A DNA stretch of 64,000 nt from Styela clava. Its lineage: Eukaryota > Chordata > Ascidiacea > Stolidobranchia > Styelidae. The stretch is from positions 13,731,135 to 13,795,134 of the forward strand of contig NC_135255.1 of the NCBI RefSeq assembly GCF_964204865.1, given 5' to 3'. Shown here piece by piece: positions 11,146 through 58,483 of this stretch (the first letter of the stretch is position 1; every line of letters begins with the position of its first letter). Position numbers and translations under genes: made by a program. Under the pieces are notes generated by a model. That model did not search any database and was not told the DNA's origin. It saw nothing but the letters and a program-made list of their open reading frames with translations.

Positions 11146-12542
11146 CAGTGGTTCCCAACCTTTCTGCACCGGCGGACCGGTAAAACTAAATTAAATGTAC
11201 TCGCGGATCGGCGGACCGGTAAAAAATTGAAATGACTGGAACAGAAAAGAATAACATATATTTGCGTAATACAATACATTGTCGGGCACTCAATATGCAT
11301 CTAGACAAAAACTTAACCTAACACTTAAAAACAGCTCACACGAAGAAAAACTATCAAATGTGGCGGCCAAAAATTGAAATGGGTGAAACATAACATAATA
11401 CCATATTATATTTGCGTAATGAAATGCAGTGATGGGCACTCATTATGCGTAAGAAAGGCACATATATATAAAACATCTCACATAAAAAACATGTACATGC
11501 CAAATCATGTACAAACGCAATTAACTCTAGTGAGAATTTTGCTTCTATTTAGTTTCCAATATAGGATTTCAGACGATGCCTCAAGGAAGTTTCTGCAACA
11601 CGTTTAGCTCTGCAGCGGCGGGCAGCCAATTTCCTCGCTTCGCTTTAATTAAAGCCAGTGATGAAAATATTTTTATATATAATTATTGAAAATATGATTA
11701 ACTCGTTGAAAATACGGACAACAGTTTGATTGCTCGATTACTTAGCGATGGGTATTTGTTATCGAGAGATATATATCCAAAATTGTGACAGTGATTCTTT
11801 TTTTAAATTTGGACTGTAAAGTGGAATCACATTTGAATCAAGCTTTTTCTTTTTCATCTGGTTTATCATATTAATCCCTCTGCAGTTGATCGATACTTCA
11901 AACGAAATGAATTTACATTACAATGGAAAAGTCGTCGGTAACTTGGCACCAGGCTCAAAATCCTACTTTGTCTGCTCAAGATACTGGAAAAGATGTCAGC
12001 GGCTCATGCGTTTTTGCGCGCCTCGTGACCACCTGCCGTATTTTACTGGAGTATTATACTTTTCTTGACTGTTTTCTGGTTTGAACAAAGAAATATGCAT
12101 AACGTTTTATTTGGATGGTCATATTAATCAGGAAAAGCATGCAGAACAGAAAGAGCACGCGTGCCAATTTTCAGGTTTCTGAATCTTGCGAGAATTGATG
12201 GAGCGCATTCACGATTAATCGGAGCCGAAAAATCAAAAAGTGTGATTTCTCGGCGCCAAGATGTCAAGGAAGACGTCGCAATATGACGGCGGAAGAGAAA
12301 TTGCGTAATACACCAAGGCAACCTCGTCTTCGGTAAAGAGATCGGGGCGCATTCGAGATGAATCGGTGCCGAAAAAGCGAAAAGTATGATTACTCGGCGC
12401 CAAGTTGTCGCAATATGACGGCGGAAGAGAAATTGCGTAATAAACCAACGCAACCTCGCCTTCGGTACAGCGATTTAGACGGCATAAAACAACAAAACAC
12501 CGAAATTTCCCGCGGACCGGCACCGGCGGTTGGGAACCAATG
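11146..12542. mobile_element. Non-autonomous hAT transposon with 8-bp target duplication
   Basis: Terminal inverted repeats CAGTGGTTCCCAACC (left) and, read inward from the right, CATTGGTTCCCAACC match at 14 of 15 bases. They are flanked by GTATAGAC (11138-11145) and GTATAGAG (12543-12550), a 7/8 match to the 8-bp target duplication expected for hAT elements. GCGGACCGG motifs repeat near both ends. No transposase frame is evident. Inside, a segment of about 120-135 bp is tandemly duplicated (about 12201-12336 and 12346-12467), both copies carrying CAATATGACGGCGGAAGAG. The element is therefore a deletion derivative with an internal duplication. Confidence 0.85.
12201..12467. repeat. Internal tandem duplication in the hAT element
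   Basis: Two diverged direct copies each run from a CGCATTC...AATCGG segment through CTCGGCGCCAAG and CAATATGACGGCGGAAGAG to CAACCTCG...CTTCGGTA. The first copy has about 14 extra bases. Open frames across this region merely read through the two copies and look similar for that reason. Confidence 0.75.
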
Positions 12543-12559
12543 GTATAGAGTAGACAACC

Positions 12560-13229
12560 GAGTTATATCCCAAACCTTCAAAAAACGTAAATCCAAATCA
12601 GCCTGGTTCTGTGTCGGCGGCATATTAGAGGTTAGCGAAGATTTCATGAACAAAACGGGAGAACGTGGGCTACATTACTTCAGTGAACGTCGGTCCAAAT
12701 TGAGCGGTTGAACTCTTACAGTTCATTTTGTCATTTTCATTTTCTATAAGCCCCACTGTGTTATTCGGAACACAACATTACCGTTTGTTATTTTATTGTG
12801 AGGGTATCCACCAGATTCCTTTATATCAGTAATGGTAGGCCACGTTAGTTAGTCATTTGAGGATCTCCTATGTTATGCGTGTATTTTTGCGCACGGCTAC
12901 CTATATCTGTCGCAACGTATCTTTTACTATACTATTTGTCATGTTTATCTTCCCTTGTATATTCTGCAGAAACTAAAGAAAGAGGTTAACAGGCACATTA
13001 ATTGTAAATACAGATTGTTGACTGTGCGCTTTACGCGAAACACCACGCTGCTCATACACTGTTGTTCGTCAAGTGAAGTAATCGGCAACACGCTGTACGA
13101 CTATTGCTAGGTATATGTCGCAATACCTCGTCGGGGTTATACTCAGACCTGACTAATTTAGTCCGCTGTTGAAGTGATTTGACAGACATCTTTTGGTCGC
13201 TGATAAACTGATACTTAACAGGCTGCAAC
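12560..13229. other. Upstream region of the sulfotransferase-like gene
   Basis: No coding exon was found. The sequence is less AT-rich than the flanks toward its end and presumably holds the promoter and 5' UTR of the gene starting at 13230. I cannot point to a convincing core promoter motif. Confidence 0.35.
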
Positions 13230-15837
13230 ATGAAGGTGATTGTGGCTGGTTACCCCAAAACGGGAACAAAATCTATGAACTGGGCTCTCACCAGATTGGG
13301 TTACAAAGTCTATGATTATCCCGAGAACGTGTACTTGCTGCAGAAGGAATACAAAAAGATATTTACACAAGGCTGGACGACGGAGGATTTCCGAAGAATG
13401 TACGAAAATGTTGACGCAGTCGTTGATATACCAGCGTTCTATTTTTGGGAAGAAATTCATAAAGCTTTTCCCGACGCAAAGGTAGGCCTGGCGATTCGAT
13501 TTATTGAATGCAATTTTTTAAACTAATTTTTGAACTCCTGGAAATCAAAATTGGCAACTGACCTATTCGATTCATACCTAAATTTCGAAATTAAAAACTG
13601 ATAAATAGCTAGCAAACAACGAAAACGAGCTGATTCTCTGCACACCTGCATGGCTGAAAAGTGAAAACCTGTCTAAGTGAACAGTGTCTGAGCGACTGCT
13701 AAATTTTCAGTCGTTGCGTCCTTGTCAACAGTGAATTAAGCAAGAGAGTAGATGCTCAGGTAAACGTTTATTGATAATTCGTCTGGCTAATTTTATTGTT
13801 CTTTGAAGCTGCGGCCTTTATCCAAATCGATTTTCCATTTAGTCAACGGCTGTGAAAGTCCGAACGTTGGCTTTGCATACCAAAATTAATCATTTTCCAA
13901 ATGTATTTATGCTTTCAATACTTGTTTAGATAATCCTGACCCTGAGAGACAGCGAGGAAGAATGGTTTCAAAGCATGAAGAATCTCGTTGACGTTGGGGA
14001 ATCTAATATTGCACTCAGAGCACTTGAGATTTTGTCTCCCACACAAAGAAAGACAATGAGAGATGTTACCAATTATATGGGCAAGTTTGATTCTTTATTA
14101 TTAAGTTTTCATTGCATTATATTCAGAGATTCGCAGGTTTCAGTTGATATAATTGATTCCCAACTATCATTAAAGAGAGTAATATTCACTATTCAAAAAC
14201 ATCTGTTGATGACCTACCAGGAGATAGTAATTCATTATATATTGCTTAACATAACGGGATCTAGCTGAAATCAACTACAGTTGAGCGAGTTTGTCAAAAT
14301 ACTCTTAAAGTTTTTTTTTATCATCAAACTATAGGAATAAATCCCCCCCCCCCATACCCATGCTTTTAATGACAAAGAAGACAATTCAAAATCAATCTGC
14401 AGTGAAAATGCACTATCAGTTTCATTCTTTATCGTAAAGGTCCTACAATAATGGGAATTCAGAATCAGTCAAGTTTGAGACGAAAAGCTCATTTAAATGG
14501 ATCCATGTTGAAATTAAAGTACCGGAACCATAATTCATCCGTACTTCAGGTTGGTGCTATATAATTATTTTGTTTATAGCACAATTTCTTACAATAATAA
14601 TTCTCGTTTTCCCGTGCCCTTTTTGTATTGACATTTGCTGCAAATTTATTTCATATTTTACATTGGTATGATTTTGCTAAAAGTACATTCAAGACCAAAT
14701 AACATTTATAGGACTTGGAATAGAGTAATTAAGTCATCATTTAATACGTACTCATTTTCTATACCTGTGTGGACTGGGGTATGTAATAAACTGGGCACGT
14801 CGATACTACTAAATGATCATTTCAGACCAAGTGAATCCGTCTAGTCTAGGGGTGGGCAAATTACGGCCAGCGGGCCAGATTCGGGTCGCCGAGGTGTTTC
14901 ATCCGGCCCACTTGTGCCTGCTGAAATTACGTATTTATGTTTATTTAGGACCTTCAAAGACTTATTTTGTGTGGCCGCGAAGGCTGCAGCTCATTTCTTT
15001 CTTTCTGCCAGTTCATTAATTTCACTTTCATCCAATTATTCTGTCTATACTCACGACACTTGCTAAATTTTCAATGCTATTCAATACATCTCCTGCGACA
15101 TGTAACTATTTCATTACATCAGTGAAACCAACATGCAGGCAATTGTTTATTCATGTTAGTTACTTGCAAATAAACCGTTTTTCATGCATCTTGAGTTTTG
15201 AACGACCAGCCCAGTAACCAATATTATTATTTGTGAGTGGCCCACTTAGGAAGGTAATTGCCCACCCCCGATCTATGCCGGTACGTTTACCAGCCAATGT
15301 TGGAGCAAATTTGAATCATTGTTTCCTAATTTCAATCTAAATACCAAAATGCCACAAACGTATTTATTTTTGACTTCTGAATTACAATGCATGTTTGTAA
15401 ACTCAATTTTAGGGAATTATTTCGAATCAGGCATTAGGTATAATCTGTAAATGCCCCAATGTTATCTCCATGCCCTGACTGTTTGATTTTCAATGACAAT
15501 GGTGTATCTGTCTGTATTTTAGAGAGCGCCGAAGGATAAACTACTAGTTTACAAGTGTTCCGAAGGCTGGGAGCCTCTGTGTAAATTTCTTGGTGTTCCA
15601 GTTCCAAAAGAACCATTCCCACACAAAAATAAAGCAGGGAATATTGTCGGCGAGGTTTTGGAAACAAACGAAATTTTTTTGCGCATGCAAAGGGAATTAC
15701 TTTTTTCTTCAATAGCTATAATCGCTGGATCCATAACATTAGGGTATTATACATACAAACTTGGGCCTCTTGGTGTCTGTAAAGGGTTGGTAGAATCAGT
15801 CACTGATATGTATGAAAAATTTCCAACATTTTGGTGA
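13230..15837 (+). CDS. P-loop sulfotransferase-like protein, C-terminally membrane-anchored
   Basis: Exons 13230-13481, 13930-14080, 14440-14549 and 15523-15837 give 275 aa, the usual length of the Sulfotransfer_4-type family (often labelled NAD-dependent epimerase or P-loop NTPase in databases). The 5'-phosphosulfate loop is GYPKTGTKSM (7-16). The 3'-phosphate strand is LTLRDSEEEWFQS, with R90. Family motifs LKYRNHNSSVLQ, APKDKLLVYKCSEGWEPLC (W187) and FLGVPVP follow in order. Residues about 230-249 form a hydrophobic segment near the C-terminus, so the enzyme may be tail-anchored. Intron 2 appears to use a GC donor (GG|GCAAGT): the GT alternatives break the frame or the family pattern. The last intron holds a hAT-like relic. 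The substrate is unknown; related proteins are mostly uncharacterised. The ATG sits just before the P-loop strand, as is normal for the family. Confidence 0.88.
14847..15270. mobile_element. hAT-like MITE in the last sulfotransferase intron
   Basis: The left end TAGGGGTGGGCAAATTACGG and the right end, read inward as CGGGGGTGGGCAATTACC, form imperfect inverted repeats followed by CGGGCC-type sequence, as in many hAT elements. The possible flanking duplication GTCTAGTC/ATCTATGC matches at 5 of 8 bases, suggesting an old insertion. Confidence 0.65.
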
Positions 15838-21100: not shown

Positions 21101-21102
21101 AA

Positions 21103-21440
21103 GCAAAAGCATATTAAGCATTACGTTATAAAGTATATATATTATTTCATTTTTCATCAATTATTTATTTCGAATGATTGTGATGAATACTCTTTCCACA
21201 CATTATTTTTTCTTAACACAAGAATTTTTTCTCACCTTGATATGCAGTGCCAAAAGTACTCCATAGATAGCAAAAGCATATTAAGCATTATGTTATGAAG
21301 TATATATATATTTTTTCATAAACTGAATACTTGAAATAATCGTGATGAATACGCATGTTTATTTTCTACACATCATTCTATTTTTCTTAACACGAGAATT
21401 TTTTGTCGCCTTGATATGCAGTGCCGAATGTAGACCATAA
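21103..21440 (+). repeat. Two-copy direct tandem repeat, period about 167 bp
   Basis: Both copies begin GCAAAAGCATATTAAGCATTA (21103 and 21270), continue through GTGATGAATAC and CTTAACAC.AGAATTTTTT, and end CTTGATATGCAGTGCC. The 113-codon open frame crossing them is explained by chance in AT-rich DNA. Confidence 0.75.
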
Positions 21441-24360
21441 ATGGTAGCTTGCTTCGAATTGTTAAATATTTCGTGTTGTTACATCTCTCGTTGAATAAGC
21501 ACGTAGACACTTTTAAATAACGCCATCAAGTTGACGCCATGCAAGACCATGAACTAAAATTTAGTGAAACTACTGAAAAGTTAGTAGTTGTTGTTGTTCA
21601 TGTAGCTTATTTAATTTACAACATAAATTATCTCAATTGAATATTGTTCATTTTTCATGAAAATAAAACGGTGGTAAAATGTAATAATTTTGGGGAATTT
21701 TCCGCTATTGCACTCATATCGTCAATTAGACCTTGCTAATTGTAGAAATTAGGAACTTGAAAAACATTCTATGATCCTGATTACATTTTATCTTTGCTTG
21801 ATGAAATGCCAATTTTACATCGATGACACGCTCCAAAGTACTAAATTAATTTAATTGGTTTCCGTTTGGAGCCTAAACGCCGCGGGATAAAAAATCACAG
21901 TTCAGTCATCATGATCAACATTCTTCGATGATGATTCTTATATATTCAAAGAATTGCCAACAGAAAAACAAAATTATCAAATGATAAAAGTTATTGTAAT
22001 TTGTATACTTTATTGTACAAGAAATGGACATATTGGTTGAGTTGTTGGATTGTTGTAATTTTTTCTTAATTGTCGCGAAAAATCACATTACTATATATGA
22101 GTAATCAACCAATCCAATCAATTTTAAATTTCCAATACTTAATTAAAGCTAGAAGACTATTACTTTCATTTTCAAATTTCTGTGAGTCATATATATATAC
22201 TTCATCCTGAATTCTGTCGTGTTTTATTTCAGGGGCACACCTTAGGGTGGCATTCGGTACAGTTTATTTTAAGATCTGGATGTAATTTGCTGATATTGTG
22301 ACGGATATCATATTCGTCAATTGACTTCCGGTTCCATATATTGCTCTTGAGCACAGATTGGTATTACAATATACTATTTTTATAATCCACGAGCACACCT
22401 CAATACAGCTTTCATTACATTTCGTTCATATTTGGCAAGAGTTTGCGGATATTGCGGCGGTCATATTCGTATTTTGGTGTCTGTATATTATTCTTAGTCA
22501 TTAATTGGTGTTATACCGAATTCATCAACCCATTTCGTCCTACTTAATGTAAAAGGTAAATATATAACAAAAACTTTCTTACATTTGGTAGTTTCCAAAT
22601 TTTTTATTGTCTGTGATCTTTTGTGTGTGACTAACGTAATTTCGTTCTTATAAGACATATAAAAATGGAAATCCCGTGATTAGAAATATTACTTCCTAAA
22701 TATTGTTGTCGCGTTTAATCATTGGTTTGAAGAAACTGGCCGACTGAATTGAAAATTAACTTGAGTATATTGTCATAGCAATGGCCTTTCTTTTGATATT
22801 CATAATACAAATTGAGTGCGAAAATGAAGCATGGCAAACTTAAAACCAAAAATGTTTCAGAGTATAAATCGGTGTTTTTAATTTTAAAATAAAATAACAT
22901 GAGCTCAATTATTTAGAAACGAAGGTCAAAAGGCTACCACAATGCCCGTAAAATTGCAGCCAAATGTTAAAATAAGTAACAAATGTCATATGAAGATGTA
23001 TAAGACGAAGATATATAAGCTGGCGTAGAATTAATGCAAAATTTGAAAAATAAATACCCTCTAGCGACATCTTCCGTCCGTATTTACTCAAAATTTGATA
23101 TAGATAGATGGCTATAGCAAAGCAACACGAATATTTTTATAACACAAACAATTGCGCCAACGAAGGCAATAGCTTCAATTTTGCAAAACGATTCAAAAAA
23201 TTTTGTCTCACAGTGCCGAAAAAAATTGTCGGCCGCTTTTCTCTACTCTGAAATTTCCAGTGGTTAAAGATTGTAGTTGTCGCTCGAAAGGTATTACTTT
23301 ATATAATATATTTCAAAAATTTCATGAGGGCTCTATAGGATTAGTTTTTCAATTTGAAGTTTTGTGTGATGACGTCATCTCTTGTTTCATAAAACGTTGC
23401 AACAGAGTTGCAGTAACAGTTATCGGATCATTTATGTTGGACTAGAAAAATTGAACTCATAGATAGCGTATTGGCGCAAGATGATCCAAATGGCTCATAG
23501 AGCCGTGTGCAGCTCTAGCGGTTGACATTTGTGTTGCAATACGATGTAATAAAAATAAAACAATGTACATAGTTTATTTCTCATTGCCTATGTTTCAGGT
23601 AATTCGGTCTTTTATGCTGTTCTTCGGAAGTGTATTGTCTTTCAGGTTTCAATAGATAAATGACACGTAGTCAACACAAGACAAAACTTTTGATAAAGTT
23701 TTATTGTCTTCACTCTTCCATTTCATCTTTGTTCTTTGGTATGTCATGGTATTTATAGATATTCTTCTTCAATGATTTTTTCCAATCACCCTGTGTTATC
23801 CTTTGTTCATTTTCATTATATTTTATTTATGACAGAATGGTTTGCGTAGCAGAGGAAAGGGTGGGTGGGTTTATGGCGGTAGGAAGTAGAAGACTTGATT
23901 AAGCCCCAGGTTGAATTATTGCTAAGTAGTAAACTAATGATCCTATTTTAGTAGTGTTAGTGCAAGCAAGTTGGCCCGTGCGCCGTACTCACATTGCTAG
24001 ACAATAGTATTTTTTTTTAACTCTATCCTTTTTAATTGAAGAAAAGTGGTAGCATATTTTGAATCCAATTCCTAGTCGATTTACGCACCTGTTACCGGAT
24101 TCGGCAAATGTTATAGCGTGTATCAAACACTCAATGCGCTGTCTTTGAATGTATGTATCATAATTTACACTTTTCTTTTGAGTAAAGAACTGAGATTGAT
24201 GAGAAAAAACCTGTGAAAAATGTATATATATATTTCTTTACTCACCCGAGTCAGTATTTGCACTATAACTATTACGGTGAACCCAATAGTACTACCATAT
24301 CGCTCAAATGGAATTGGGAATACTTACTCTGTCAAGATTTATAACATCAGAATAAAAAAT
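21441..24360. other. Intergenic; one degenerate MITE-like stretch
   Basis: No gene was found. At about 23.20-23.42 kb the sequence resembles the body of the GGACACGAAA-type MITE (CAGTGGTTAAAGATTGTA, then a GATGACGTCATC box) without recognisable ends. The end of the region should contain the claudin-like A promoter. Confidence 0.4.
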
Positions 24361-25969: not shown

Positions 25970-27680
25970 GACCGCATACATGTCTTGAAAGATTCATTTC
26001 ATTGTGAAGTGATATTTCAATAAGCCAATACTATTTAACACCATAGTTACAAACAATTAGCCTGAGCTTTTTTCTGTGTAGATATCGATATTTCAGATGA
26101 AAGTTTGATGATCGATACTTTCATTTTCATAAAATGGTAATAACGGTGTCAACTAACGGTCTAAAGGCGGTATATTTATCTGATGACGTTTAACTACTCA
26201 AGATGATGCCGAGCTCTCCACAACAATATACCTAATCAAAGGTAAATGTGAACTGCAAGGTATTAATTCTTTTTAAAACAGTTGTGTAAATTGCTTATTG
26301 GACACAAAATGGACCTAAGGATCGCTTTGTTATTATGTTGTTAGAATTCTTTTGCTTTGGAATTTACAGCGGTGAAAGATTGTATTTTCTGCTAGAAGGC
26401 TATAACTTTAATTTTTTCAAAAATTTCTGTGGGCTCTCTGGGTTCGTTTTGAATGTACGATGGCGTCATAAAAATTCAAAATTGTGCACTTTGTGGCGTT
26501 AATTTAAAGATCTGATATAATTTAAATTGCTATGATTATTTTATTATGTTTGTTTATACAGTTCTTATGAAGTTTCTCCGCGTTTTTTCAAACGTTCATT
26601 TAAACTTACGGAATATGTTTTTGTATTTCACTAATATCCTATATTAGTTTGAGTTGAATATTTTTCTTTTATTTTTTTTACTTTACTTTATTATATTATT
26701 TGTTAATAAAGGAAAATTGTACATATCAATACTACGTATTGGGAGTGTTTTTGCAGATAGCTCCAAAATGCCCTCTCGCCGCACCTATATGTATTGCGTT
26801 TGTTATAAAACAACATGTCGGAGCTAGTCAACATAGAATGAGTCTACGTTATGAATGTGGCTGTGGAACATGTTTTTTACGATATTCTCACTTGGTTGAT
26901 ACTTAAATGTGACTCAATAAACGAGTGATTAAAATCTGACGTGAATAGAAGTGAAAACAATATCATTTTCAAATGATAGAAAATATTCGTGAATGCGTTT
27001 GAAAAGAATTAGGGGTGAGTGTGTATGATAGTAACTCTTCTTTAAGCACTTACTTTTTAAAACTCGGTTTCTTTGTTCTTATTGAACATCCTAGGTTTTT
27101 TTTTTCTCGCTGCAGGGGTCATATCGAACATTCAATTCATTTTCTATTTTATTGTTTCAGTCTGAAGCCTTTATTTCGATATGTACATATGTAGCACGTA
27201 GCCAATACAACATGAAATTCGACTCCAACACTTTTGTTGTACCTCAGTCGTACTATTTGTTATATCACGTTGGGATTATCAAGCAAGTAAAACTGTAAAG
27301 AAATTGTCAACTCATTCTCGCATTATATATTGATCATGGTTGTATATAATCTTGAAATGTTTTCAATTAAATATGATTAAATATTGCGTAACCTGATATA
27401 AAAGAGAAGTAAGATCAACTAAACATTCCGAGTATCATCATAAGATATTGATTTTTGTACATAACCTTCAATCATGGTTTTCTCATATTCAAGACAAATA
27501 ATACAATCAACAGTTCATAGGCACGGCTCCATATAACCGACTCAAAAAATTTTTGCAATTACAATCGGATTGCACCAATATTCAAAAGACTGACTTATAC
27601 TAGGATGTCATGTCGAATTACCGTAGCCTATTGTAAGGAACATTCTTGAACTATTTTGAAATCATTGTCCAGTTTCGTTG
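25970..27680. other. Intergenic with one degenerate MITE copy
   Basis: From about 26295 the sequence matches the GGACACGAAA-type MITE (TTATTGGACACAAAATGGAC, then GAAAGATTGTATTTTCTGC and TTTCTGTGGGCTCT) to about 26.5 kb, with a lost right end. The rest holds nothing I can name. Confidence 0.45.
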
Positions 27681-28189: not shown

Positions 28190-28379
28190 GCTTTCTGATA
28201 AGACAACTATTGGTCAACTACTTATCCGTCTTCGATGCTTTTGCAACGTTGAATCCGTATGCATATTGTACAAGGGTGCTGTGGCAAGAGTAAAGATGAC
28301 TGTTCATAGTGATTCAAGAGTCTTGCTGCACAGTAACACGATAGCGTATTGCGTTAGTGTGCAACAAGAATCTTGAATC
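28190..28379 (+). repeat. Snap-back repeat, copy 1
   Basis: This segment is homologous to 47107-47344 (shared ATCCGTATGCATAT, GCAAGAGTAAAGAT and GATTCAAGAGTCTTGCTGCA). It ends in an imperfect inverted repeat, 28311-28379, whose arms GATTCAAGA.TCTTG close with only a few unpaired bases. The 86-codon open frame over it is therefore repeat-derived. Confidence 0.65.
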
Positions 28380-28536
28380 AATTTGAATAATGACTCGTAG
28401 CACTATCTAATATAAACTCAAATGTGTCTGAAATCTGGTTATAAAGTAAATAAATTTCAGTTCGAATAGGAATTAATTTATATCAATGTACTTTATAGGT
28501 TTTAAATACTTTGGTTAGATTTAGAATCGGAATATA

Positions 28537-34829: not shown

Positions 34830-35640
34830 TTTACATGTATTATTATATAATGTCACAATGTGGAACAAAATGTCACTTTTTTGCCAAAGTGTTTTTATTT
34901 GGCATGGCCCATGATGCAAGGCCGAATTGTTCCATTTTAGTTTTAGACCATCAATTCGTGTTCAGAAACCTATTTTATTTCAAATTTTAATCGAATTTGT
35001 CAAGTGGTTGCTAGGTTTGTTACTTTCACAAAGACATATACATATTTATTTTTCTTTACAATAATGTATTTTCAACAATATAGTGGTAGTAGAATTTTTT
35101 GCTAGCATAAATGAGCAAAGTGCAAGCGACTTTTATCGCAAGGGGATTGATTAATAGCATGAACAATAAAAGTGCTCGAGTTGAGCCGTGGAAATAAGAA
35201 CAAGAGTATAAAGATCGATGTTGATTTCGCATTCAGAGCAAATTATTTTACTGCCAGTACCCAGGGGCGGATTATGCCCCTTTGGTGCCCTAAGCACTGA
35301 AGACTTTGGTTCCCCCCTATGTGTAATTTAATTATAAAAAACAATAAACCACATAAGTGTATTATCCATTAAAAATAATCACAACCAACAGTAAATAAAA
35401 TAAATTTTATGAACATTTTTAGATTTTTTAACTGTTATATAGAGCCGATATATATATCGGCCGTTTACTGCCGATATGATATATCGGCAAACACACAACA
35501 TCCGGCCGATATAACGTTTGAGCTCTAATCCTGGAGGAGTGTGACAATAAAGATTCATGCTTCCAGTCTCAACGTGAATCAAAATACCAAAGGATACAAG
35601 TCACAACTGTAGTTTGCAATTTTACCGGTACCTAGTAGTC
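34830..35640. other. Intergenic; possible hAT-like remnant
   Basis: It holds the probable 3' UTR of the 34.5 kb gene. CAGGGGCGGATTATGCCC near 35.27 kb looks like a hAT-style end, and palindromic CGATATATATCGG segments lie at 35.45-35.51 kb. No second end was fixed. Confidence 0.35.
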
Positions 35641-35645
35641 TACCT

Positions 35646-36419
35646 CAGGGTGGTTCAAGGTTGCTAGGTTGAAGGACCGCAAAAACTTGTGAGAAGTTCT
35701 CGCGGGCCGCAAGTCGAAGAAAACCCAAGAGTGATCGAAATATCACGAGTCTACTTATTTTCAATTTAATAAATAACGAGAGTTTACCGTTCTAATCAGA
35801 CCATTATTATGTTGCATGGGTGGCGTTTCTTCAAAGAAGATAATAAAGCCTTCAGTTATTTAAAAAATAATTCCCTAAAATTAACGCTGTATTTTCTGCA
35901 TCTCGTGTTTGATGTGGCTTCAAATTATATTCTTTCGTGACAGATATTACTTGAAATCAAACCAGACACTGTGTGGTGGGCAAGGAAATACGTTTCCGCC
36001 GTGTTTTCCTTATGTCACTTTTCTCGTGGCAATCATTTTATTACGAATTGTCATATTTGAGTAATTTAAAAACTTGCAGCGTGATCAAGCTTAGTGCCAT
36101 CGTCAAATAACCAACAAGTCCGTCTAAGTTGGTATTTCGGGACCTTGCTGAAAAAAAAAAACTGGATTGCGCGGCGTTAAGTCGGGTCTGCGTTTCGTCA
36201 CTACTGTCACATGGCCCACGCTTGAAAACAGAGAGGTGTTTTTACAAAAATAGAGGCACAAAGCGTTAGAAAAAGGGGTTTGAATCTCGGGATTCCGACC
36301 CCAGTTGAATACCTGAAAAAAAAACGCAAAAACGCTCTGCTATTAGATACAAATATACGCTAAAATTGTTCTGTGGGCCGCACGGAATGTATCAGCATGA
36401 CAGGGTTTGGACCACCCTG
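35646..36419. mobile_element. Non-autonomous hAT element, 774 bp
   Basis: The left end CAGGGTGGTTCAAGG and the right end, read inward as CAGGGTGGTCCAAACC, form inverted repeats. They are flanked by GTCTACCT (35638-35645) and GTCCACCT (36420-36427), matching at 7 of 8 bases, as expected for hAT. Subterminal GCGGGCCGCA and GTGGGCCGCAC mirror each other. No transposase frame is present. Confidence 0.8.
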
Positions 36420-36617: not shown

Positions 36618-37003
36618 ATAAGTTTCAGTGTTTATTTTCGATAAAGAAGGATAATATGATACTTGAAGACAAAAAATAAGCGAACATTTTGAAGTTTGAG
36701 TCGCATGGTGAACTATTAAATTCTGCTATAAAAATTTCTGTGGTGCCCCGAAGCACGTGCTTATATTGTTCAATGGTTAATCCAGATCTGCCAGTACTTC
36801 AAAACATTTGAAAACTCAGAAGATATGTCGTCCATTTCACCCGGTGCTAAAACGATATTAGTTCATTCCGAAATGAATATGGTCAGTACATGTTCAGCAC
36901 AATAATTCAGTCCATATTCAACCGGTCATTTCCTGAACCCTAAAAAGGTATACATATCTGAATATTAATAATATCGCTAACTCGTTTCAGCAAGATTATT
37001 ATT

Positions 37004-37320
37004 ATTGGACACAAAATGGACATATGGATCGTTATTGTGTTCAAAGATTGTGTTTCCTGCTAGACCGCTATTACATTTATTCATTTCAAAACTTTCTGTG
37101 GGCTCTATGGACTTTTTTAGCCTCGAAATAGTTGTGATGCATTCTAGAAAATTAATAAAAAATATTTGTATCGATTTCTTCGACCTCCTTCGTGCTACTT
37201 TTTTGCTATTGCAAAAGCCTGAAGTTTTTTATGGTACTGGTATTGTAAAAGCTAAGTTAGACTACTGCTTTGCGTTGGTCTTTGTGCCCATATATAGCAA
37301 AGTAGTAGCAAAGTGGTAAT
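37004..37320 (+). mobile_element. GGACACGAAA-type MITE, degenerate copy
   Basis: It starts ATTGGACACAAAATGGAC, followed by AAAGATTGTGTTTCCTGCTAG and TTTCTGTGGGCTCTATGG as in the 26.3 kb copy. The right end is not recognisable. The 104-codon open frame across it is repeat-derived. Confidence 0.5.
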
Positions 37321-41547: not shown

Positions 41548-41968
41548 TTGTTCATTTTTAAACATTCAATTCTGATATATTCATCGAAATATGAATCAAT
41601 GTTGCCGTAAACATTCAAACTCATTGTGAAATATTACTACATTCGCCCTGAAGCATGCATTGTTCATCATGCATTGTGGTATATATATATATATATTCAT
41701 TTCATATAATACTGATTTATATCTTGATGCGGGTGTTAAATGTTATGTCAAAAATGTTGTGAAGTATGAGTTCGTGCTAAAGTATTTTGTCGACTCAAAA
41801 ATGTTTATTGTTTTATGATTCGATTTGGGTGAACATTGTCTTCGGGGTATTTGAGATGCAAGTGTTTTCGCAGCTTAGTGGAACTGTAATAATATAATAC
41901 AGCATTGCCTAATATAAATGCATATTTATGAATTTATATAAAATCTTTCAAATTTGTCCTCAATTCGT
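41548..41968 (+). repeat. Duplicated segment, uninterrupted copy
   Basis: About 421 bp running from TTTTTAAACATTCAATTCT through GCATTGTGG, an AT run and TTCATTTCATATAATACTG to TTTGTCCTCAATTC. The same sequence recurs immediately downstream in three pieces: 41985-42069, 42282-42350 and 48148-48428. This copy lacks both inserts and so represents the pre-insertion arrangement. Confidence 0.85.
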
Positions 41969-42069
41969 TTTATTCGAATTTTTGTTTATTTTTAAACATT
42001 CAATTCTAATATATTCATCGAAATATGAATCAATGTTGCCGTAAACATTCAAACTCATTGTTAAATATT

Positions 42070-42272
42070 GGTGACCGTACATTTGAACCCACGTACATTT
42101 GAACCCATGTCTATATCCGCGGGTTCAATCAATATGCGGGTGCTGAAACCCATGGGTTAGGGTTAGGATGGGTTCAACTATCCGTACAACAAAAAAATTT
42201 CCATAGGTGCAATAGTATGCAGGTGCAATTGTCATGGGTTCAAATGTACGTGGGTTCAAATGTAATGGAACC
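42070..42272 (-). mobile_element. Mutator-like MITE, copy 2, 9-bp target duplication
   Basis: 203 bp in the opposite orientation to copy 1, starting GGTGACCGTACATTTGAACC and ending in the inverse of GGTTCCATTACATTTGAACC. TTAAATATT flanks it on both sides (42061-42069 and 42273-42281). The uninterrupted duplicate has a single GAAATATTAC at the same place (about 41629), which confirms the insertion. Confidence 0.9.
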
Positions 42273-42879
42273 TTAAATATTACCACATTTGCCCTGAAGC
42301 ATGCATTGTTCATCATGCATTGTGGTATATATATATATATATATATATATAACTCTATTACGGTAGTTAAACGGACCTGCCATAATTGCAGTACTTAAGC
42401 GGACGTCGTTCCTGTGTCCGTATCAATGTTTTTAAATACGTGCTTGGAGAGCGCGAGAGCCGTTGACAACTACGGAGAAAAAGAGTCAACATAATCCTCT
42501 CGACAACAGATATAAAATTTTTGTCCGCTTAATTCGTCCACTTAATTCAGACCACCAAATGTTTTAGCCTATTTCGGCACTAAGCCGGACCCCTCCTATA
42601 TGTCGCTCTGGATGTCTACATAAATGATGTTGCTTTTATTTTAATACGCATTTTAAAGCGTATGACCTCGCTTCAATTTCCGATGGATTCGAACGATTTA
42701 GCAATATTTATCACAAAAAATAGCATTTCTTTTTCAATGTTCCGTCTTTCGTGCAAGGGAGATGCACTGTGTTTGGTTTTGGAAATATTCTTCTATATCA
42801 AAAAATACTCAAAATGCAACGTGAAGGTAGACAAATCGAAACAAATTGATTCAAACGTAATATATATTTGAAACTGAGA

Positions 42880-45830
42880 AATACACAGAGCATATCACAA
42901 ATGTTCGCCTAATCCAACCCTATGGTGTAACATATAGATTAAACAAATGCTATGTTGTGAGTGTCAAGATATCAATACCAAGTCAAAATTAATGCATTCA
43001 AATAATATTGATAAACATTGCGCAAAATATATCTCAAAAATCCGCATATCTATATGGCTAGTTATTAAGCGTGACATATAATTGAAAAACAAAATTTTGA
43101 AATGCCATACATATTGAGAAACAATACACAAAATATATTTCAAATGTATCACCAATTTGATTGCTAAAGTGTGAAATATTATTTTAAAAAGGAAGTGTGG
43201 TATATAAGAGTAAAATAAAAAATGAAAGTGCTAATATTATTGAGAAACAATAAAAGAAAATTATATATACGCAGAAGGAAACCGCAGAATGAAATTCGGA
43301 AATGCCAATAATATTGAAAAAATATCACAAACTTTATCTCAAATGTCCACCTATCCGGCCTTTTAGGTTATACAAATAATTGTAAATGGGAATTCTGGTA
43401 TGTCATTAATGAAGACAAAAATCACACAAATTCGATTTCAAATGTTCATCTATTCGGTCACTCAAATGTGGCACGTAATTGAAAAATGAACACCAGCCCT
43501 ATTGAGAAACATTACACAAAATATATCTCAAATGTCCACTTATCCGGCATTTAAGTGTGGCATATAACAATTAAAATAAAAATCTGAAATCATATTGAGA
43601 AATATTACACAAAGTATATCTCAAATGTCCACCTATCCGGCCACCTAAGTGTGGCATACAAGAATTGAAATGAAAACTCTGAAATCATATTGAGAAATAT
43701 TACACAAAGTATATCTCATATGTCCACCTATCCGGCCACCTAAGTGTGGCATACAAGAATTAAAATGAAAATTCCGAAATCATATTGAGAAATATCACAC
43801 AAAGTATATCTCAAATGTCCACCTATCCGGCCACATAAGTGTGGCATAAAGCATTAAAATGAAAACTCTGAAATCATATTGAGAAATATTACACAAAGTA
43901 TATCTGAATTGTCCACCTATCCGGCCACTTAAGTGTGGCATAAAGCATTAAAATGAAAATTCTGAAATCCTATTGAGAAATATTACACAAAATATATTTT
44001 GAATGTCCACCTATCCGGCCACCTAAGTGTGGCATACAAGAATTGAAATGAAAATTCTGAAATCATATTGAGAAATATCACAAACTTTATCTCAAATGTC
44101 CACCTATCCGGCCACCTAAGTGTGGCATAAAGCATTAAAATGAAAATTCTGGAATCATATTGAGAAACATTACACGAAGTATATCTCAAATGTCCACCTA
44201 TCCGGCCACCTAAGTGAGACATAAAACAATAAAATGAAAATTCTGGAATCATATTGAGAAACATTACACAAAGTATATCTCAAATGTCCAGCTATCCGGC
44301 CACCTAAGTGTGGCATAAAACATTAAAATGAAAATTCCGAAATCGTAATGAGAAACATTATGCGAAGTATAAATCAAATGTCCACCTATCCGGCCACCTA
44401 AGTGTGGCATACAAGAATTGAAATGAAAATTCTTAAATCATATTGAGAAATATTACACAAAGTATATCTCAAATGTCCACCTATCCGGCCACCTAAGTGT
44501 GGCATACAAGAATTGAAATGAAAATTCTGAAATCATATTGAGAAACATTACACAAAGTATATCTCAAATGTCCACCTATCCGGCCACCTAAGTGTGGCAT
44601 ACAAGAATTGAAATGGAAATTCTGAAATCATATTGAGAAACATTACACAAAGTATATCTCAAATGTCAACCTATCCGGCCACCTAAGTGTGGCATACAAG
44701 AATTGAAATAAAAATCTGAAATCATATTGAGAAACATTACACAAAGTATATCTCAAATGTTCATCTATCCGGCCACCTAAGTGTGGCATGAAACAGTCAC
44801 AATGAAAATTCTGAAATCATATTGAGAAACATTACACAAAGTATATCTCAAATGTCCACCTATCCGGCCACCTAAGTGTGGCATACAAGAATTGAAATGA
44901 AAATTCTGAAATCATATTGAGAAACATTACACAAAGTATATCTCAAATGTCCACCTATCCGGCCACCTAGGTGTGGCATACAAGAATTGAAATAAAAATC
45001 TGAAATCATATTGAGAAACATTACACAAAGTATATCTCAAATGTTCACCTATCCGGCCACCTAAGTGTGGCATAAAACAATCACAATGAAAATTCTGAAA
45101 TCATATTGAGAAACATTACACAAAGTGTATCTCAAATGTCCACCTATCCGGCCACCTAAGTGTGGCATAAAACGATCACAATGAAAATTCTGAAATGATA
45201 TTGAGGAACATTACACAAAATATATATCTCAAATGTCCGAATACCCGACTACCTAAGTGTGGCATACAACTATTGAAACCAATTCCTGAAAACATATTGA
45301 GAAATCTTACACAAAATATATCTCAAATGTCAACTTATTCAACCGCTTTAGTGTGTGAAATATAACTAAAATACGAAATTTCGAATACTAATCATATTTT
45401 GATGTTGTGGAAAATTGCTCAAAATTTATCTCAAATGTTCACCTATCCGATAACTTGAGAGTGACAAATATTATAAATCAAAATTTTGAAACCATATTGA
45501 GGAACAATACAAAAAATATATCACAAATCGTCATCTACTCAGCTACGTAAGTGTGTCATGTAAATGCAAAATGATATTTTGGAATGACAATAATATTAGG
45601 AAGCATTCAAAAAGAATTTCAACCATCCGACCATTTCAGAAGGTATGTAATTAAAACACGAAATTCTCTAAAAAAAATATCGAGAACCATTACACACAAC
45701 ATATCTCAAATGTTCAATTAAGTGACGTTTTCAGTGGGGCCTTTAAATGCGAAATGAAATTTTGCCATGTCAACTAAAATGAGAAACATTACACCAATTA
45801 TAACTCAAATGTCTACCTATCAAGGCGCGC
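42880..45830 (+). repeat. Satellite array, period about 95 bp, about 30 copies
   Basis: The unit contains CATATTGAGAAACATTACAC, AAAGTATATCTCAAATGTCC, ACCTATCCGGCCACCTAAGT and GTGGCATACAAGAATTGAAA. Spacing between successive CTATCCGGCC motifs is 94-96. Central copies (about 43.6-45.2 kb) are nearly identical, while copies at both edges are strongly diverged. Each unit has a small dyad GCCAC-CTAAGT-GTGGC. Variation in the ACAAGAATTG/AAACAATCAC segment marks subtypes. The array lies inside the 5.8 kb insert. Open frames in it are read-throughs of the repeat. Confidence 0.93.
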
Positions 45831-45839
45831 CTAAGTATA

Positions 45840-47100
45840 GCAGTGATTATACAGTCAACTATACAAGCGATCAACATGAAATTATTGAACCCCAATATCA
45901 ATTTAGAATCTTTGCACAATTTATTTAAAATTTCGGAATACAAAAACATGATTGTTATTTTGAATTTATAATTAAATAGTAAAAATGTATGCCAAGTATG
46001 TATACGAATGTGGATATGCCCACTAGATTAAGTTGTTGAGGAGAGACAAAATTATGTGCTCACTGCCGGTTCATCTTTATGAATTATACAGAGATGTCTT
46101 AAAGCTTTACAATAAACTTCTCGCAAAATATACAAATCCGTGCAATTATTTTTCTTTTCGTCGTTTCTTTTCTGGTTCACGTTTATTTAGAAGCTTTTTT
46201 GGAATTGATTTACAGCCCTTTTCTTTTCCGTATATATGATTTTCTTTTAAGTCACTTACATTGCTTATTGAAAGTGATTCTGAAGATGGTGCGGTATAGT
46301 CTGTTGACTAATCTGAAACTTTGGTCAAAAATACATGCATAAGTCACAAAACATCATCACAGTGTTCTAGTCCAATTCAGAATTACGGTACTCTTGATTG
46401 ACCGAACAAACGAAGTGTCTGAAATGGGGAATTGCATTATTACTCAAATAAAACAGTGTTAAACGGTGCACTACAATTATTCGTAGATAGCTGCGCTATT
46501 TGTGATGGGCTACAATTGATATTATGATTTGGTTTATTACCATTCATTGGTATCAATTTGAGATGCCGTATTTAATTAAAAACAAGCATAGCAAACTAAT
46601 TTAATCACCTCCTGGCACAGCGTTCTCCGAATCTCTACCCGCATTTCCGTCTGCCAAGTTCTGAAACGTAGGCCATCTCGTTGGAGAGTCACTTACATGT
46701 GAACAAAAAATACAGCCCAGTAAATAACTAGATGAGGATGGTAAAATACAACCAGGGATATGTGCAAAATCACAAAACAAAATTGCTAGCAATGCAATTC
46801 TTTAAAACTGTTTTCCGAAGATAAAATATTCTAATCTAATATGAAGCGGTGTATTAGATATTTTTATTTATACAAAGCTATACTATATAAAGTGGCGTCA
46901 ACCACTCGCTTCTCGTATCTCCTTCTGTTTCGAGAAAAAATTGAATTCATTGAATTTTCACAATCTTCGTTTGTATTGTCATCTGGATTTAGAAATCCTT
47001 CTGAATTACACACTCTTACAAACGCAAACCCAGTCGTAGCAATATTTTGATGGTCAGGAATAAGTGAAAAATCTCAACAACAAAAATATATGCTAATGAT
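45840..47100. other. Interior of the 5.8 kb insert, no gene confirmed
   Basis: AT-rich sequence with short open frames. One minus-strand candidate exon, 46660-46601, follows a CGTTTCAG acceptor and encodes 19 residues to a stop, but no partner exons were found. Nothing else is recognisable. Confidence 0.35.
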
Positions 47101-47106
47101 TTGGTT

Positions 47107-47344
47107 TCTGCAAGACTAACTACTTATCCTTCTTCTATGCTTTTGTGTCGGCGGATCCGTATGCATATAGTGCAAGGATGCTGTAGCAAGAGTAAAGATA
47201 ACTATCCTAAGTGATTCAAGAGTCTTGCTGCACACTAACACAATTATATTTCTGTAACGTTTCGTCTGACCAAAGTCAGACTTCTTCAGACATACATAGT
47301 AAATGTAATTGTGTTAGTGTGCAGCAAGACTCTTGAATCACTTA
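47107..47344 (+). repeat. Snap-back repeat, copy 2, with perfect 39-bp arms
   Basis: Homologous to 28190-28379. Arms 47208-47246 and 47306-47344 are perfect inverted repeats around GATTCAAGAGTCTTGCTGCA, enclosing a 59-base loop. The loop holds its own hairpin, GTCTGAC-CAAA-GTCAGAC (47264-47281). Read on the minus strand, the loop is CTGAAGAAG, hairpin, GAAACGTTAC, which recalls a hammerhead ribozyme core. Confidence 0.8.
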
Positions 47345-48154
47345 GAACAAAAATATAGTAGCCCTAATATTAAAAATCGTTATGACTAATCACCTCATCC
47401 GATGAGTGATGATTTCCAGCAGCATTCCTCGGTGACGTTGAAAACCTTGTTTCAAGTTATTATGACTCGACTTCAACTCACTGGGTAATTGATAACACCT
47501 GACACAAAAGACTTGGATCGCTTCTCCAAACACAACTGTTCTATTTTATCTAAATTTCTGCAATCACGCACTCATGAAGATCCCGATTCCCTTACGGCGT
47601 CCAGGTTACTCGCGAACAAAACGGCAAACGTGGTAGGTAAAGTTCTCAGCAAACCCGACAGTTTTACTATTGCGACACAAAGCCTCTTTAGTACGGAGTT
47701 GTGAATTGAGGTCCTTTTCAGTTTATTGAGCTTATATTGCAAAAAACAGAACGAACGATCTTCATGTTCTGCCTGGTTATTGTATCAAAATTATCAGTCC
47801 TACTCTCCAAAAATCGTAAAGACATATACCGAAAAATTAAAAGATTTTCGCATAAACAAAATGTCCGCTTAGTGTACGAAAATTATATCCGTTGATTATA
47901 AACCAGCAGAACTACTGTCCCCTTAAAGTTGGCGAAAATATGCAGATATTTTAAAAATATTGAAAGAACATATTATTTTTGATACTGTTTTATCAGAGAA
48001 AAAGAGATTTCAGCAAAAAATCGCAAAACGTTTTAATTATGGAACGTGGAATAATTAAGCGGACAGGAAAATGTCTACCCAATTTTTCCGTCTACATAAC
48101 TGTCGCTTTTTTAGCACGGTATGTCTACTTAACTACCGTATTAGATATATATAT

Positions 48155-48428
48155 ATATTCATTTCATATAATACTGATTTATATCTTGATGCGGGTGTTA
48201 AATGTTATGTCAAAAATGTTGTGAAGTATGAGTTCGTGCTAAAGTATTTTGCCGACTCAAAAATGTTTATTGTTTTATGATTCGATTCGGGTCAACATTG
48301 TCTTCCGGGTATTTGAGATGCAAGTGTTTTCGCAGCTTAGTGGGACTGTAATAATATAATACAGCATTGCCTAATATAAATGCATATTTATGAATTTATA
48401 TAAAATCTTTCAAATTTGTCCTCAATTC
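48155..48428 (+). repeat. Duplicated segment, distal part of the interrupted copy
   Basis: From TTCATTTCATATAATACTG to TTTGTCCTCAATTC it matches 41695-41968 with only a handful of substitutions (for example GTCGACTC versus GCCGACTC). It is the downstream half of the interrupted duplicate. Confidence 0.9.
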
Positions 48429-51569: not shown

Positions 51570-54500
51570 TGTTACTTTTTTATTTTCAAATTTGGTTACT
51601 GATGTTAGCGACTCTTTTGCTTCACAATATTTCAACTTAATGGTGGAAACTTCTGAAACGCGTCGTTTTTTATAACCAAGACACTGAGCTACAATTTTGT
51701 GACGTTTAACGATGGAACTTTCCTCTCTCCGATTACGCGAAGAAAACACCGATGTCTGACGCAAATGGAGGCGTCAAAGATGATAAAGTAGTCCGCATAT
51801 CGCTTTTACCTCATATGGTCTTTGGTGTAATGCTTATTATTTACCTCTCATGGGGTATACATGTACTCTACAATCAAAATACCATTTATCTATGATCCAC
51901 CCATGGTCTTTATCTAGATTCTAGATCATTCCAAAGTTTCTGAGAATTGCCTGGAGCGAAAATCAATATATATGGTAAAATACAGCATTCGAATTCAATA
52001 TGTTCTGCGATCCAATATCATAATTATTCAACACATCATAATAACAATATCTGAAAAGAATGAATTAATCCCACTAATTAGTCTTTTCAAATTAGACGAA
52101 ATCTCTAACGCTAACATACATTAATTAGATACCTGGTAACGAGAAGGTCCCATACAATTATTGATAACGAATCATTTTATTGCATTATACAGACTTGTAG
52201 CTCAGCTATTGTTTCAACAAGTTATAATATTGAATGTACGATAGAAGATTCCATCTACCATTTTACGGTTGTTTCTGAATAACCAAGCCTCTGATTGCTT
52301 ATGACAGATTAATGGGTTAGGTACCACGGTAGTTTTTGTCTTCCGAATGTGTTTTCAATATATGTATATCACAGTTACTTACTAGAATGCTATTTTTCTT
52401 ATTGTTATGAAAGAACCGCTTTTCTCATTAACCCCCAAACCAAATGCTTTGCTTTGAAAGTGGTTGAAGATTGTATTTTTCGTAAGAAGGCTATTACTTT
52501 TGTTCATTTCATAACTTTCTGTGGGCTGTATGGGATTTGCTTTTTGTGTGCGATTACGTCATCAAAATTAAAAATTTGCGCACCTTGTGGCGGTTCCGCC
52601 TTCGCATTAGGGGTCAGGCGAAATTGTGAAGACTATGGTACCGGTAGTCTTCTGTGACAGATTGCATACCCGTACTACTTCGGTTTGGCCTTCCTTGTTT
52701 TTCGGCGCATCTATACCACAGGTGCTATAAAGACTAGCCAATACGAAGAGTTTCTCTGAATATAATCAATTACGATTACGCTTTAAATCTAATTTAGATA
52801 ATTGAGTACCCGGTTTTAAAATAACATTTAATAAGGAAAAGGAAGTTTATTTCGAGCGATTTTTTTACATGGCATATGATTATGAATATAGAATTATAAA
52901 TTAATTGAATGGTAAGCATGTGTAATTATGTAGTACTTTTAATCGACGTTTGGCACAAAAGAAAAGAAAATTCATGACAGGCTAGTTATAAATCCAATTT
53001 ATTTTTATAATTCATTTAGAAAATTAAAACCAACTTCTGAACCACCCAGTATTGCTCTCATTGCTTTGAAATGTTGAAATTAAAGGAAAAATGGTTCATG
53101 AAGCTGACAAAAAAGCAGATACAAAGATATTGACTGAATGCAAGCAAAGATAGAGTGTATTACTAAAGGGCATATCGCCTGGCTTAAAACAAGTAAAACA
53201 AGAATGAATACGACAACGTTCAAAATTATGTAAATTTTTTATTTCAATTTTCTATGTAATACAAAATTATACGCACATTCTATAGCAAAGTGGCTTTTTC
53301 CCGCGCTCAGTCGCACATAAACAATCAATAGTGGAATGTTTTCTTAGTTCGTTATAACAAAGATTTTTACCTACAAAGTTTTTATCTTCAGTGAAGTCCT
53401 ACGGTGTCTAGAGTGATCAAAATTGTTTGATTTCTCACGCCCTTTTTATATCTTCTATCATGCCAGATTTAAGGCTGAAATTTTGATTTTCAGATAAAAT
53501 CCTTTCAGTTGGATACAACAAGAATTTGGAGCGTTCCAATTTATTCATTCTTGTAGATCAGCGCATATCATACACTGTCAAAGGCGATCAACATTGTTCG
53601 CTTGATAACACTGTGTCAACTCTCAGGCCAAAGTTTCGAGTTGCAATTTGGGATTCGAGATTGTTAAATTCGGTAAATTCGTGCCTTCGGAAGTGTGCGC
53701 ACTTACAGCTACCTACCTGCTTTTGCAAAAGTATATAATTAAATGAGTCAATGTCATACATTGAGCAAGTGGATCGACATATGATGACACAAATTACTGA
53801 AATTATGTCAATTGCAGCGATTCAAACTCCTTGCAATATTGGCTTTCTTTACTATTCTTTCATAAATACAACTGCATGTAGCCTACGCGCACCTGATATG
53901 AGTCATTTGAACCAACTTACACAGAACATTTGTGCACTTAACAGATGTCAATTCTACGTGATGGCACTACAGATTTTTGAATTTCAAGGCGTAATTATAA
54001 TATACTACGTGGAGAATTGACTTTACAAAAACGTACTTTCACATTGAACTCTGCGAATACTTATTAAATAACATATATATATGGCTAATGAATAAAATAA
54101 AAAATGTATATGATTTGGCCATTCTTTCAATGTTAACCACACACTCAACTTACTCATGGTATAAGATTAGAAATAAATCCATCGAGATTCTACGTATTTT
54201 CAAATAAACCAAAAGGTGGTCACTTAAATTATACAAAGCCTTGTTTCCACTTCGTGTGGTCAATATGCTTTTTGGGTCATGCAGCCTATATTACAAAATA
54301 CAGTAGAGGCGCATTGTTTAGTACTGAAATGGGATTTAAATTTCATTCGTTATACTAAAAACCAGACTGAAATTCAATATATATCAACGAAAATCTCACA
54401 GTCGCGAGCGAGATATTATTATTACAAGCCAAAAACGGAGTATCTTAGACTTGGAATCTATTTATACGTTATATACTGAAAGAGGTTTTCATAAAATAGC

Positions 54501-58195: not shown

Positions 58196-58483
58196 TGGAC
58201 ACGAAAACTAAAACGAAACAGTACGAGTATGCAATCTGTCCCAGTAGGCTATCGGTACGGCAGTTTTACGAGTAACACGAACTCAGTACCGTCAAAAAGT
58301 GCGCAATTTGGATGACGTCATCGCACAAAGTAATAGCCTTCTGACGAAAAATAAAATATTTGAACCGCTGAAAAGCAATTGGTTCAGTAGTTAATGAGAG
58401 CGATTTTTCTCATGACAATAAAATTCCAACAGCAGCAACAACAACATAACTACAAAACAATTCATATGTACATTTCGTGTCCA
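58196..58483 (-). mobile_element. GGACACGAAA-type MITE, best preserved copy
   Basis: 288 bp with inverted ends TGGACACGAAA (left) and, read inward from the right, TGGACACGAAATG. ATA flanks both ends (58193-58195 and 58484-58486). The body includes GATGACGTCATC, a palindrome also present in other copies, and a CAACAACAACA tract. This copy defines the family found in pieces at about 17.2, 23.2, 26.3, 29.1, 36.6, 37.0, 52.5 and 60.3 kb. Confidence 0.75.

Follow-up and report, generated by a model that had tools for sequence, protein, structure and literature searches.

Transposons that settle in TA microsatellites have been described in plants. MuTAnT, a Mutator-like family of Medicago truncatula, inserts into (TA)n, has TA on both sides and consists mostly of non-autonomous copies, and its empty sites average about nine TA repeats, with occupied sites being longer (PMC4486113). 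Ninety percent of the MuTAnT copies measure 200–300 bp, with GGGG ends and a foldback layout; target duplications of 9 nt are seen at the 14 of 218 copies that are not in perfect TA, and a putative autonomous Mutator-like element (MULE) is described as their partner (PMC4486113). SaTar and Micron, from guayule and rice, also target TA microsatellites and include elements joined end to end; they are small non-autonomous MULEs of about 380–1900 bp, and in many of the guayule families some copies lying outside microsatellites have 10-bp target duplications (PMC5907723). The Ac-mMITEs of pineapple, which are short, likely Mutator-derived miniature inverted-repeat transposable elements (MITEs), prefer (TA)n (about 74% lie in TA) and form non-nested clusters (PMC8449440). 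In the open-licence literature that was searched, TA-microsatellite-targeting families came from plants only and were mostly small elements, which is no proof of their absence elsewhere. Here we describe a large animal counterpart of these plant transposons (MuTAnT, Micron, and SaTar), a 5.8-kb element in a 64,000-nt stretch of the genome of the ascidian Styela clava (contig NC_135255.1, positions 13,731,135–13,795,134; hereafter the window, in which all coordinates are numbered from its first letter).

The locus is probably the product of a tandem duplication of a 419-bp unit, followed by insertion of a MITE and of a TA-microsatellite-targeting non-autonomous transposon into one of the two copies. 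In contrast to MuTAnT, the present family is 4–6 kb long and has other ends, no partner was found for it, and none of its 52 exact ends belongs to a copy outside TA.

The tandem duplicate and its two insertions

A repeat finder, local BLAST and base-by-base alignment agreed in placing a 419-bp unit (copy A) at 41548–41966 and a second copy (copy B) directly downstream, the two being separated by an unstranded 15-nt spacer (41967–41981). All features are on the + strand unless stated otherwise. Copy B is broken into three pieces, 41982–42069, 42282–42325 (ending at a TA run), and 48159–48428. The matches to copy A, in the same order and orientation, extend over 41982–42069 (96.6%, 88 nt), 42275–42342 (97.1%, 68 nt), and 48142–48428 (97.9%, 287 nt). 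An earlier reading of the letters alone, referred to here as the original prediction, had proposed a tandem repeat whose second copy lies in three collinear pieces. Self-comparison of the window bore out this arrangement, with small shifts of its borders: copy A ends at 41966 instead of 41968, and the borders of the pieces move from 41985, 42282–42350, and 48148 to 41982, 42275–42342, and 48142. Copies A and B differ at 10 of 393 aligned sites (2.54%, ungapped and excluding the TA run), through seven transitions and three transversions. A search of the genome (376.6 Mb in 379 contigs), which passes over simple repeats and very common words, found the unit at these four stretches only, all within the window. 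An origin of the spacer as templated filler was rejected, its best matches elsewhere reaching 13 of 15 positions and lying far off.

Copy A carries both empty sites, a single TGAAATATT at 41627–41635 and a 17-nt TA run at 41680–41696. At the first of these sites, copy B holds a 203-bp MITE (42070–42272) with ends GGTGACC...GGAACC and doubled 16-bp motifs, flanked by TTAAATATT on the left (42061–42069) and again on the right (42273–42281). The single TGAAATATT in copy A is one base off TTAAATATT, providing a clean empty site and confirming the predicted 9-bp target duplication. The MITE belongs to a large genomic family. A first look gave 1978 candidates, and each of the 40 that were scored covered the full 203 bases at 96–100%. 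In the copies for which both ends were found in the sequence examined, the target duplications were perfect in four of four (9, 9, 10, and 9 bp), and the ends were GG. The Merlin superfamily is characterized by 5'-GG ends and an 8–9-bp target duplication (PMC8101967), and the MITE resembles it in its GG ends and 9-bp duplication. Unlike Merlin, one of the four MITE copies reads 10 bp, and no transposase was seen for the MITE, none having been sought; its GG ends and 9-bp duplication would be compatible with Merlin or Mutator alike.

At the second site, copy B holds the large element, a 5793-bp non-autonomous DNA transposon extending from ACTCTATTACGGTAGTTAA to TTAACTACCGTATTAG (42352–48144). 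It is bordered by TA microsatellites of 26 nt on the left (42326–42351) and 14 nt on the right (48145–48158), compared with 17 nt at the empty site in copy A. Its ends form inverted repeats matching at 21 of 28 positions, which was reached by none of 200,000 pairs of random stretches. The predicted 5.8-kb insert with inverted ends in an AT run, and the role of copy A as an empty site for both insertions, stand.

That copy A lacks both insertions supports insertion after duplication, as had been predicted. Comparison of 1389 sites in the ends of 18 copies revealed 10 differences private to the element copy in the window (0.72%), which is under half of the 2.54% divergence between copies A and B; this clock is consistent with the order but is not proof of it. 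The window copy departs from the majority at 41 sites, mostly ones common to its subgroup, and the right end of one copy on contig 4 is identical to that of the window copy over 309 nt (100%).

An assembly artefact, in which two alleles with and without the insertions were placed in a row, is an unlikely source of this layout. False adjacent duplications arising from divergent haplotypes are documented (PMC2864568), and a divergence of 2.5%, about twice the Ciona heterozygosity of 1.1–1.2% (PMC6836712), would be reachable for a diverse animal. However, the flank to the left of copy B is unlike the outer flanks, as is the flank to the right of copy A; the sequence contains no Ns, and no other copy of the unit was found in the 379 contigs. 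The window also contains further short adjacent duplications, at 12197–12474 (period of about 143 bp, 82% identity) and 21102–21439 (period of about 167 bp, 78% identity), which at these identities are too old to be alleles.

Family, anatomy, and class of the 5.8-kb element

The genome search for the insert with the same ends, which the original prediction had proposed, revealed a family. The exact 19-mer left end, ACTCTATTACGGTAGTTAA, occurs 52 times in the 376.6 Mb, and its reversed control does not occur. Allowing up to two mismatches gave 66 places (eight extra with one mismatch and six with two) against 14 for the reversed control; therefore only the 52 exact ends were counted, with the eight one-mismatch places being rated as likely. 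The right end, TCTAATACGGTAGTTAAG, occurs 54 times with up to one mismatch (control, 0). In similarity searches, 40 of 71 left-end candidates were scored, at 97–100%, all 40 matching from query position 1–3, and 40 of 66 right-end candidates were scored. Pairing of the 52 exact and four near left ends with right ends gave 45 distinct pairs by coordinates, spanning 3.1–19.2 kb with a median of about 5.2 kb, and the 18 full-length copies compared measure 4.1–5.8 kb. The 17.9- and 19.2-kb copies were considered as candidate autonomous elements and rejected, the first 9.9 kb of each being the same element broken by other sequence. Two further long copies measure 11.1 kb (C16:16395903-16407038) and 13.2 kb (C1:14513503-14526745). 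The longest open frame per copy is 78–160 aa across the 18 copies, and a scan for transposase remnants in 40 open frames outside the core array gave a best E value of 0.0082, to an unrelated family. The 5.8-kb element is non-autonomous.

Both ends of the element carry TTAAGCGGAC-like motifs (up to two mismatches), located in the left end (42359–42624) at 42367(+), 42395(+), 42523(-), 42536(-), and 42614(-), and in the right end (47863–48140, - strand) at 47863(-), 47917(-), 48055(+), 48090(-), and 48123(-). With up to one mismatch, TTAAGCGGAC has nine sites in the window, seven of them inside the two 300-bp ends. Between the ends lies a 95-bp tandem array of 19.5 copies (43500–45338), nearly uniform centrally and decaying outwards, with degenerate units on either side to about 42880 and about 45820; together with these units it makes up about half of this element copy. 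Derivation of the 95-bp unit from the subterminal motif was rejected, as 2175 of 5000 shuffles were equally good.

The original prediction spoke of two nested transposons. The MITE and the 5.8-kb element instead sit side by side in the unit, and the nested one is a third insertion, at about 47089–47345 within the 5.8-kb element (no strand assigned); the original prediction mentioned neither this insertion nor the 95-bp array. It lies between direct repeats AACAAAAATA at 47079–47088 and 47346–47355 and has a hairpin with 45-bp arms at its right. It is present in two of the 18 copies compared (the window copy and L047); the site is uninterrupted in 15, and L050 has a small deletion there. Elsewhere in the window, 28216–28389 is related to 47118–47345, the two being copies of a repeat that terminates in a long hairpin (arms of 45 bp at 47207–47345).

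Internal tandem repeats in a non-autonomous element are also found in the foldback transposon Tetris, whose repeats lie inside inverted ends and which makes 8–10-bp target duplications (PMC4079207). HINE/DINE-1 elements, which are non-autonomous Helentrons, likewise combine internal tandem repeats with inverted repeats near the ends (PMC4067079). A rolling-circle (Helentron/HINE-like) origin, which would account for the central tandem repeats, the inverted repeats near the ends and the simple borders, is in our view improbable. HINEs have inverted repeats in subterminal position, T runs at their borders and, in some copies, tandem repeats amounting to about half the length, and the same source cites a helitron-like moth element disrupting (GAAA)n (PMC4067079). 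The present element shares the proportion of repeat units, including degenerate ones, and its target duplication is not readable. By contrast, HINE/DINE-1 elements have a TT target, an internal 3' inverted repeat and rolling-circle transposition (PMC4067079). Here, inverted repeats occupy both termini, as opposed to about 38–60 bp inside the 3' end in Helentron-like elements; the small 3' palindrome is not intact in every copy; and the nearest of the 25 Helitron_like_N matches in the genome, all of which were checked, lies 252 kb from a family end. The family was also not filed as Mutator-like, because a link to MULE was not found (the nearest of 82 matches, all checked, being 19.4 kb from a family end) and the target duplication that would be diagnostic is unreadable.

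TA tracts, element boundaries, and the rest of the window

The family behaves as TA-microsatellite-targeting, with insertions in (TA)n far above chance and the tract pre-existing in empty sites. TATATA directly precedes 48 of the 52 exact left ends, and the remaining four (L002/L031, L043, L051, and L053), read singly, adjoin TA tracts with a base change. For 32 of the 52 left ends the flanking sequence was read; the other 20 rest on the hexamer alone or, for some, on an 11-nt match. Left TA runs of at least 10 nt were present at 28 of 30 read loci (two of the 30 having a one-mismatch end), with a median of 24 nt, against a background of 140 in 57,000 window bases lying in TA runs of at least 10 nt. 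TA of at least 10 nt flanks both sides in 15 of the 18 full-length copies, and the other three have interrupted TA tracts. One of these 18 is the window copy; the other 17 come from 20 fetched regions, three of which (L041, L042, and L045) gave no clean pair. The read loci were chosen by similarity to a query containing 11 nt of TA, a bias from which the exact-pattern counts are free.

Several copies adjoin one another. At L043, a single TA run is common to two elements of like orientation, and contig 9 has a second end-to-end pair, about 40 nt apart by coordinates. L042 (C6:3743684-3752083) is a fused head-to-head pair with two left ends facing outward, each lying on a TA tract. Two left ends also face outward at C1:15603580-15612872, a pair that might be a mobile composite.

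Because the left ends of the family lie on TA tracts, copy A represents an unoccupied (TA)8 target. A second empty site was found inside L036, where a paralogue (about 80% identical) of the insertion locus has a TA stretch of about 10 nt at the point of insertion, compared with 29 + 69 nt when occupied. A weak third is provided by the flanks of L050 compared with window positions 35262–35771, which are TA-rich and align poorly at the site. The stretch 35262–35771 is itself a host repeat with a TA-rich palindromic middle, another genomic copy of which (L050) took the transposon. We conclude from these sequence comparisons that the TA tract is in all likelihood the insertion target and tends to be longer after insertion. 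That the TA runs are instead carried or generated by the element, as a hitch-hiking or seeded microsatellite, is very unlikely. The left ends are always accompanied by TA, and comparison of copies alone cannot separate run from end; moreover, the occupied site contains more TA in total (26 + 14 nt) than the empty one (17 nt). However, a TA tract occupies the insertion point in copy A and in the L036 paralogue, neither of which contains the element. In addition, copies differ in the length of their uninterrupted TA run (7–69 nt), and at both L033 and L024 the element borders one and the same host repeat, in opposite orientations.

As the target itself is a repeat, copy A alone is insufficient to set the ends of the element, and other copies of the family were needed. 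The single locus fits several boundary sets, for instance lengths of 5778, 5796, and 5800 bp, for which the duplications would appear to be 5, 10, and 8 nt, respectively, and the alternatives from this locus only are CGG...CCG with TATTA duplicated, or ACTCT...TTAG(ATA) with duplication of the TA run. ACTCT and TTAG were assigned to the element because they are constant among the other copies. The left edge at 42352 (ACTCTATTACGG) coincides with the family terminus, in agreement with the predicted left border; on the right, TTAG at 48141–48144 is followed by ATAT, and the last few bases are assignable to element or target alike. The claim that empty sites fix the boundaries without outside data was thus not supported for the 5.8-kb element. 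A pogo/Tc1-like element starting at CGG (42361) with a TA target duplication is the least credible of the alternatives, since the boundary with CGG ends and a TA/TATTA duplication fitted one locus, where CGG...CCG is directly flanked by TA or TATTA and the TTAAGCGGAC-type repeats have what we take to be a pogo-like appearance, but is ruled out by the outer bases ACTCTAT/TTAG being constant elsewhere (ACTCTATTA and TATTAG in other copies belong to the element, not the target), with the nearest of 126 DDE_1 matches, all checked, 18.3 kb from a family end.

In the rest of the window, an open frame at 8327–9319 contains a Wee1-like kinase domain, its best PDB matches being Wee1-like kinases, in keeping with an animal genome, and 13212–13523 and 15523–15834 match the two ends of a Sulfotransfer_4 domain and are probably exons. 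A dispersed repeat is present in pieces that are 78–91% identical (23246–23348, 26295–26498, 37002–37110, 52449–52686, and 58210–58378). Rfam and tRNA scans of the window found none, and searches of viral_contigs and genome_contigs returned no match.

Proposed history of the locus and its meaning

We propose that the 419-bp unit was duplicated in tandem and that one copy would later have taken a MITE of a large family making 9–10-bp target duplications. The same copy would have taken the 5.8-kb non-autonomous DNA transposon, of a family inserting in TA microsatellites. This proposal builds on the directly visible duplicated layout, both insertions, the family with its constant ends, the TA on both sides, and empty tracts of about 10–17 nt. 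A transposase supplied in trans would bind the TACGGTAGTTAA ends together with the subterminal motifs resembling TTAAGCGGAC, and transposition would most likely be cut-and-paste with a strict preference for (TA)n tracts. The target duplication would be concealed in the TA run, which may lengthen by slippage, and the TA tracts left on either side could be used as landing sites by further copies, giving rise to end-to-end pairs.

Several points weigh against this history. Of the three empty sites, just one matches closely (97%), and the tandem duplication was read from the assembly. None of the 52 exact ends marks a family copy outside TA tracts, leaving the length of the target duplication unread. 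A search for a partner transposase, which covered DDE_1, MULE, Helitron_like_N, and hAT only, found no match closer than 18 kb when 120 family ends were compared with 126 DDE_1, 82 MULE, 25 Helitron_like_N, and 150 hAT matches. The nearest hAT match lies 25.6 kb from a family end among 150 scored of 1852 candidates. Finally, L047, the closest to the window copy among the 17 others sampled, differs from it by 2.8%, which makes the clock loose.

It is conceivable, though we regard it as doubtful, that the family represents an animal DNA-transposon lineage outside the described superfamilies, one that inserts solely in TA microsatellites, has a satellite array as cargo and leaves landing sites for itself. 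The locus also marks a limit of empty-site logic, as a repeat target conceals the ends of the element and one locus can mislead. At the same time, the duplicate offers a same-chromosome view of a microsatellite target before and after insertion, where the usual reading of target duplications fails. If this is a strict multi-kilobase animal family, the 'safe haven' strategy would have arisen outside plants too.

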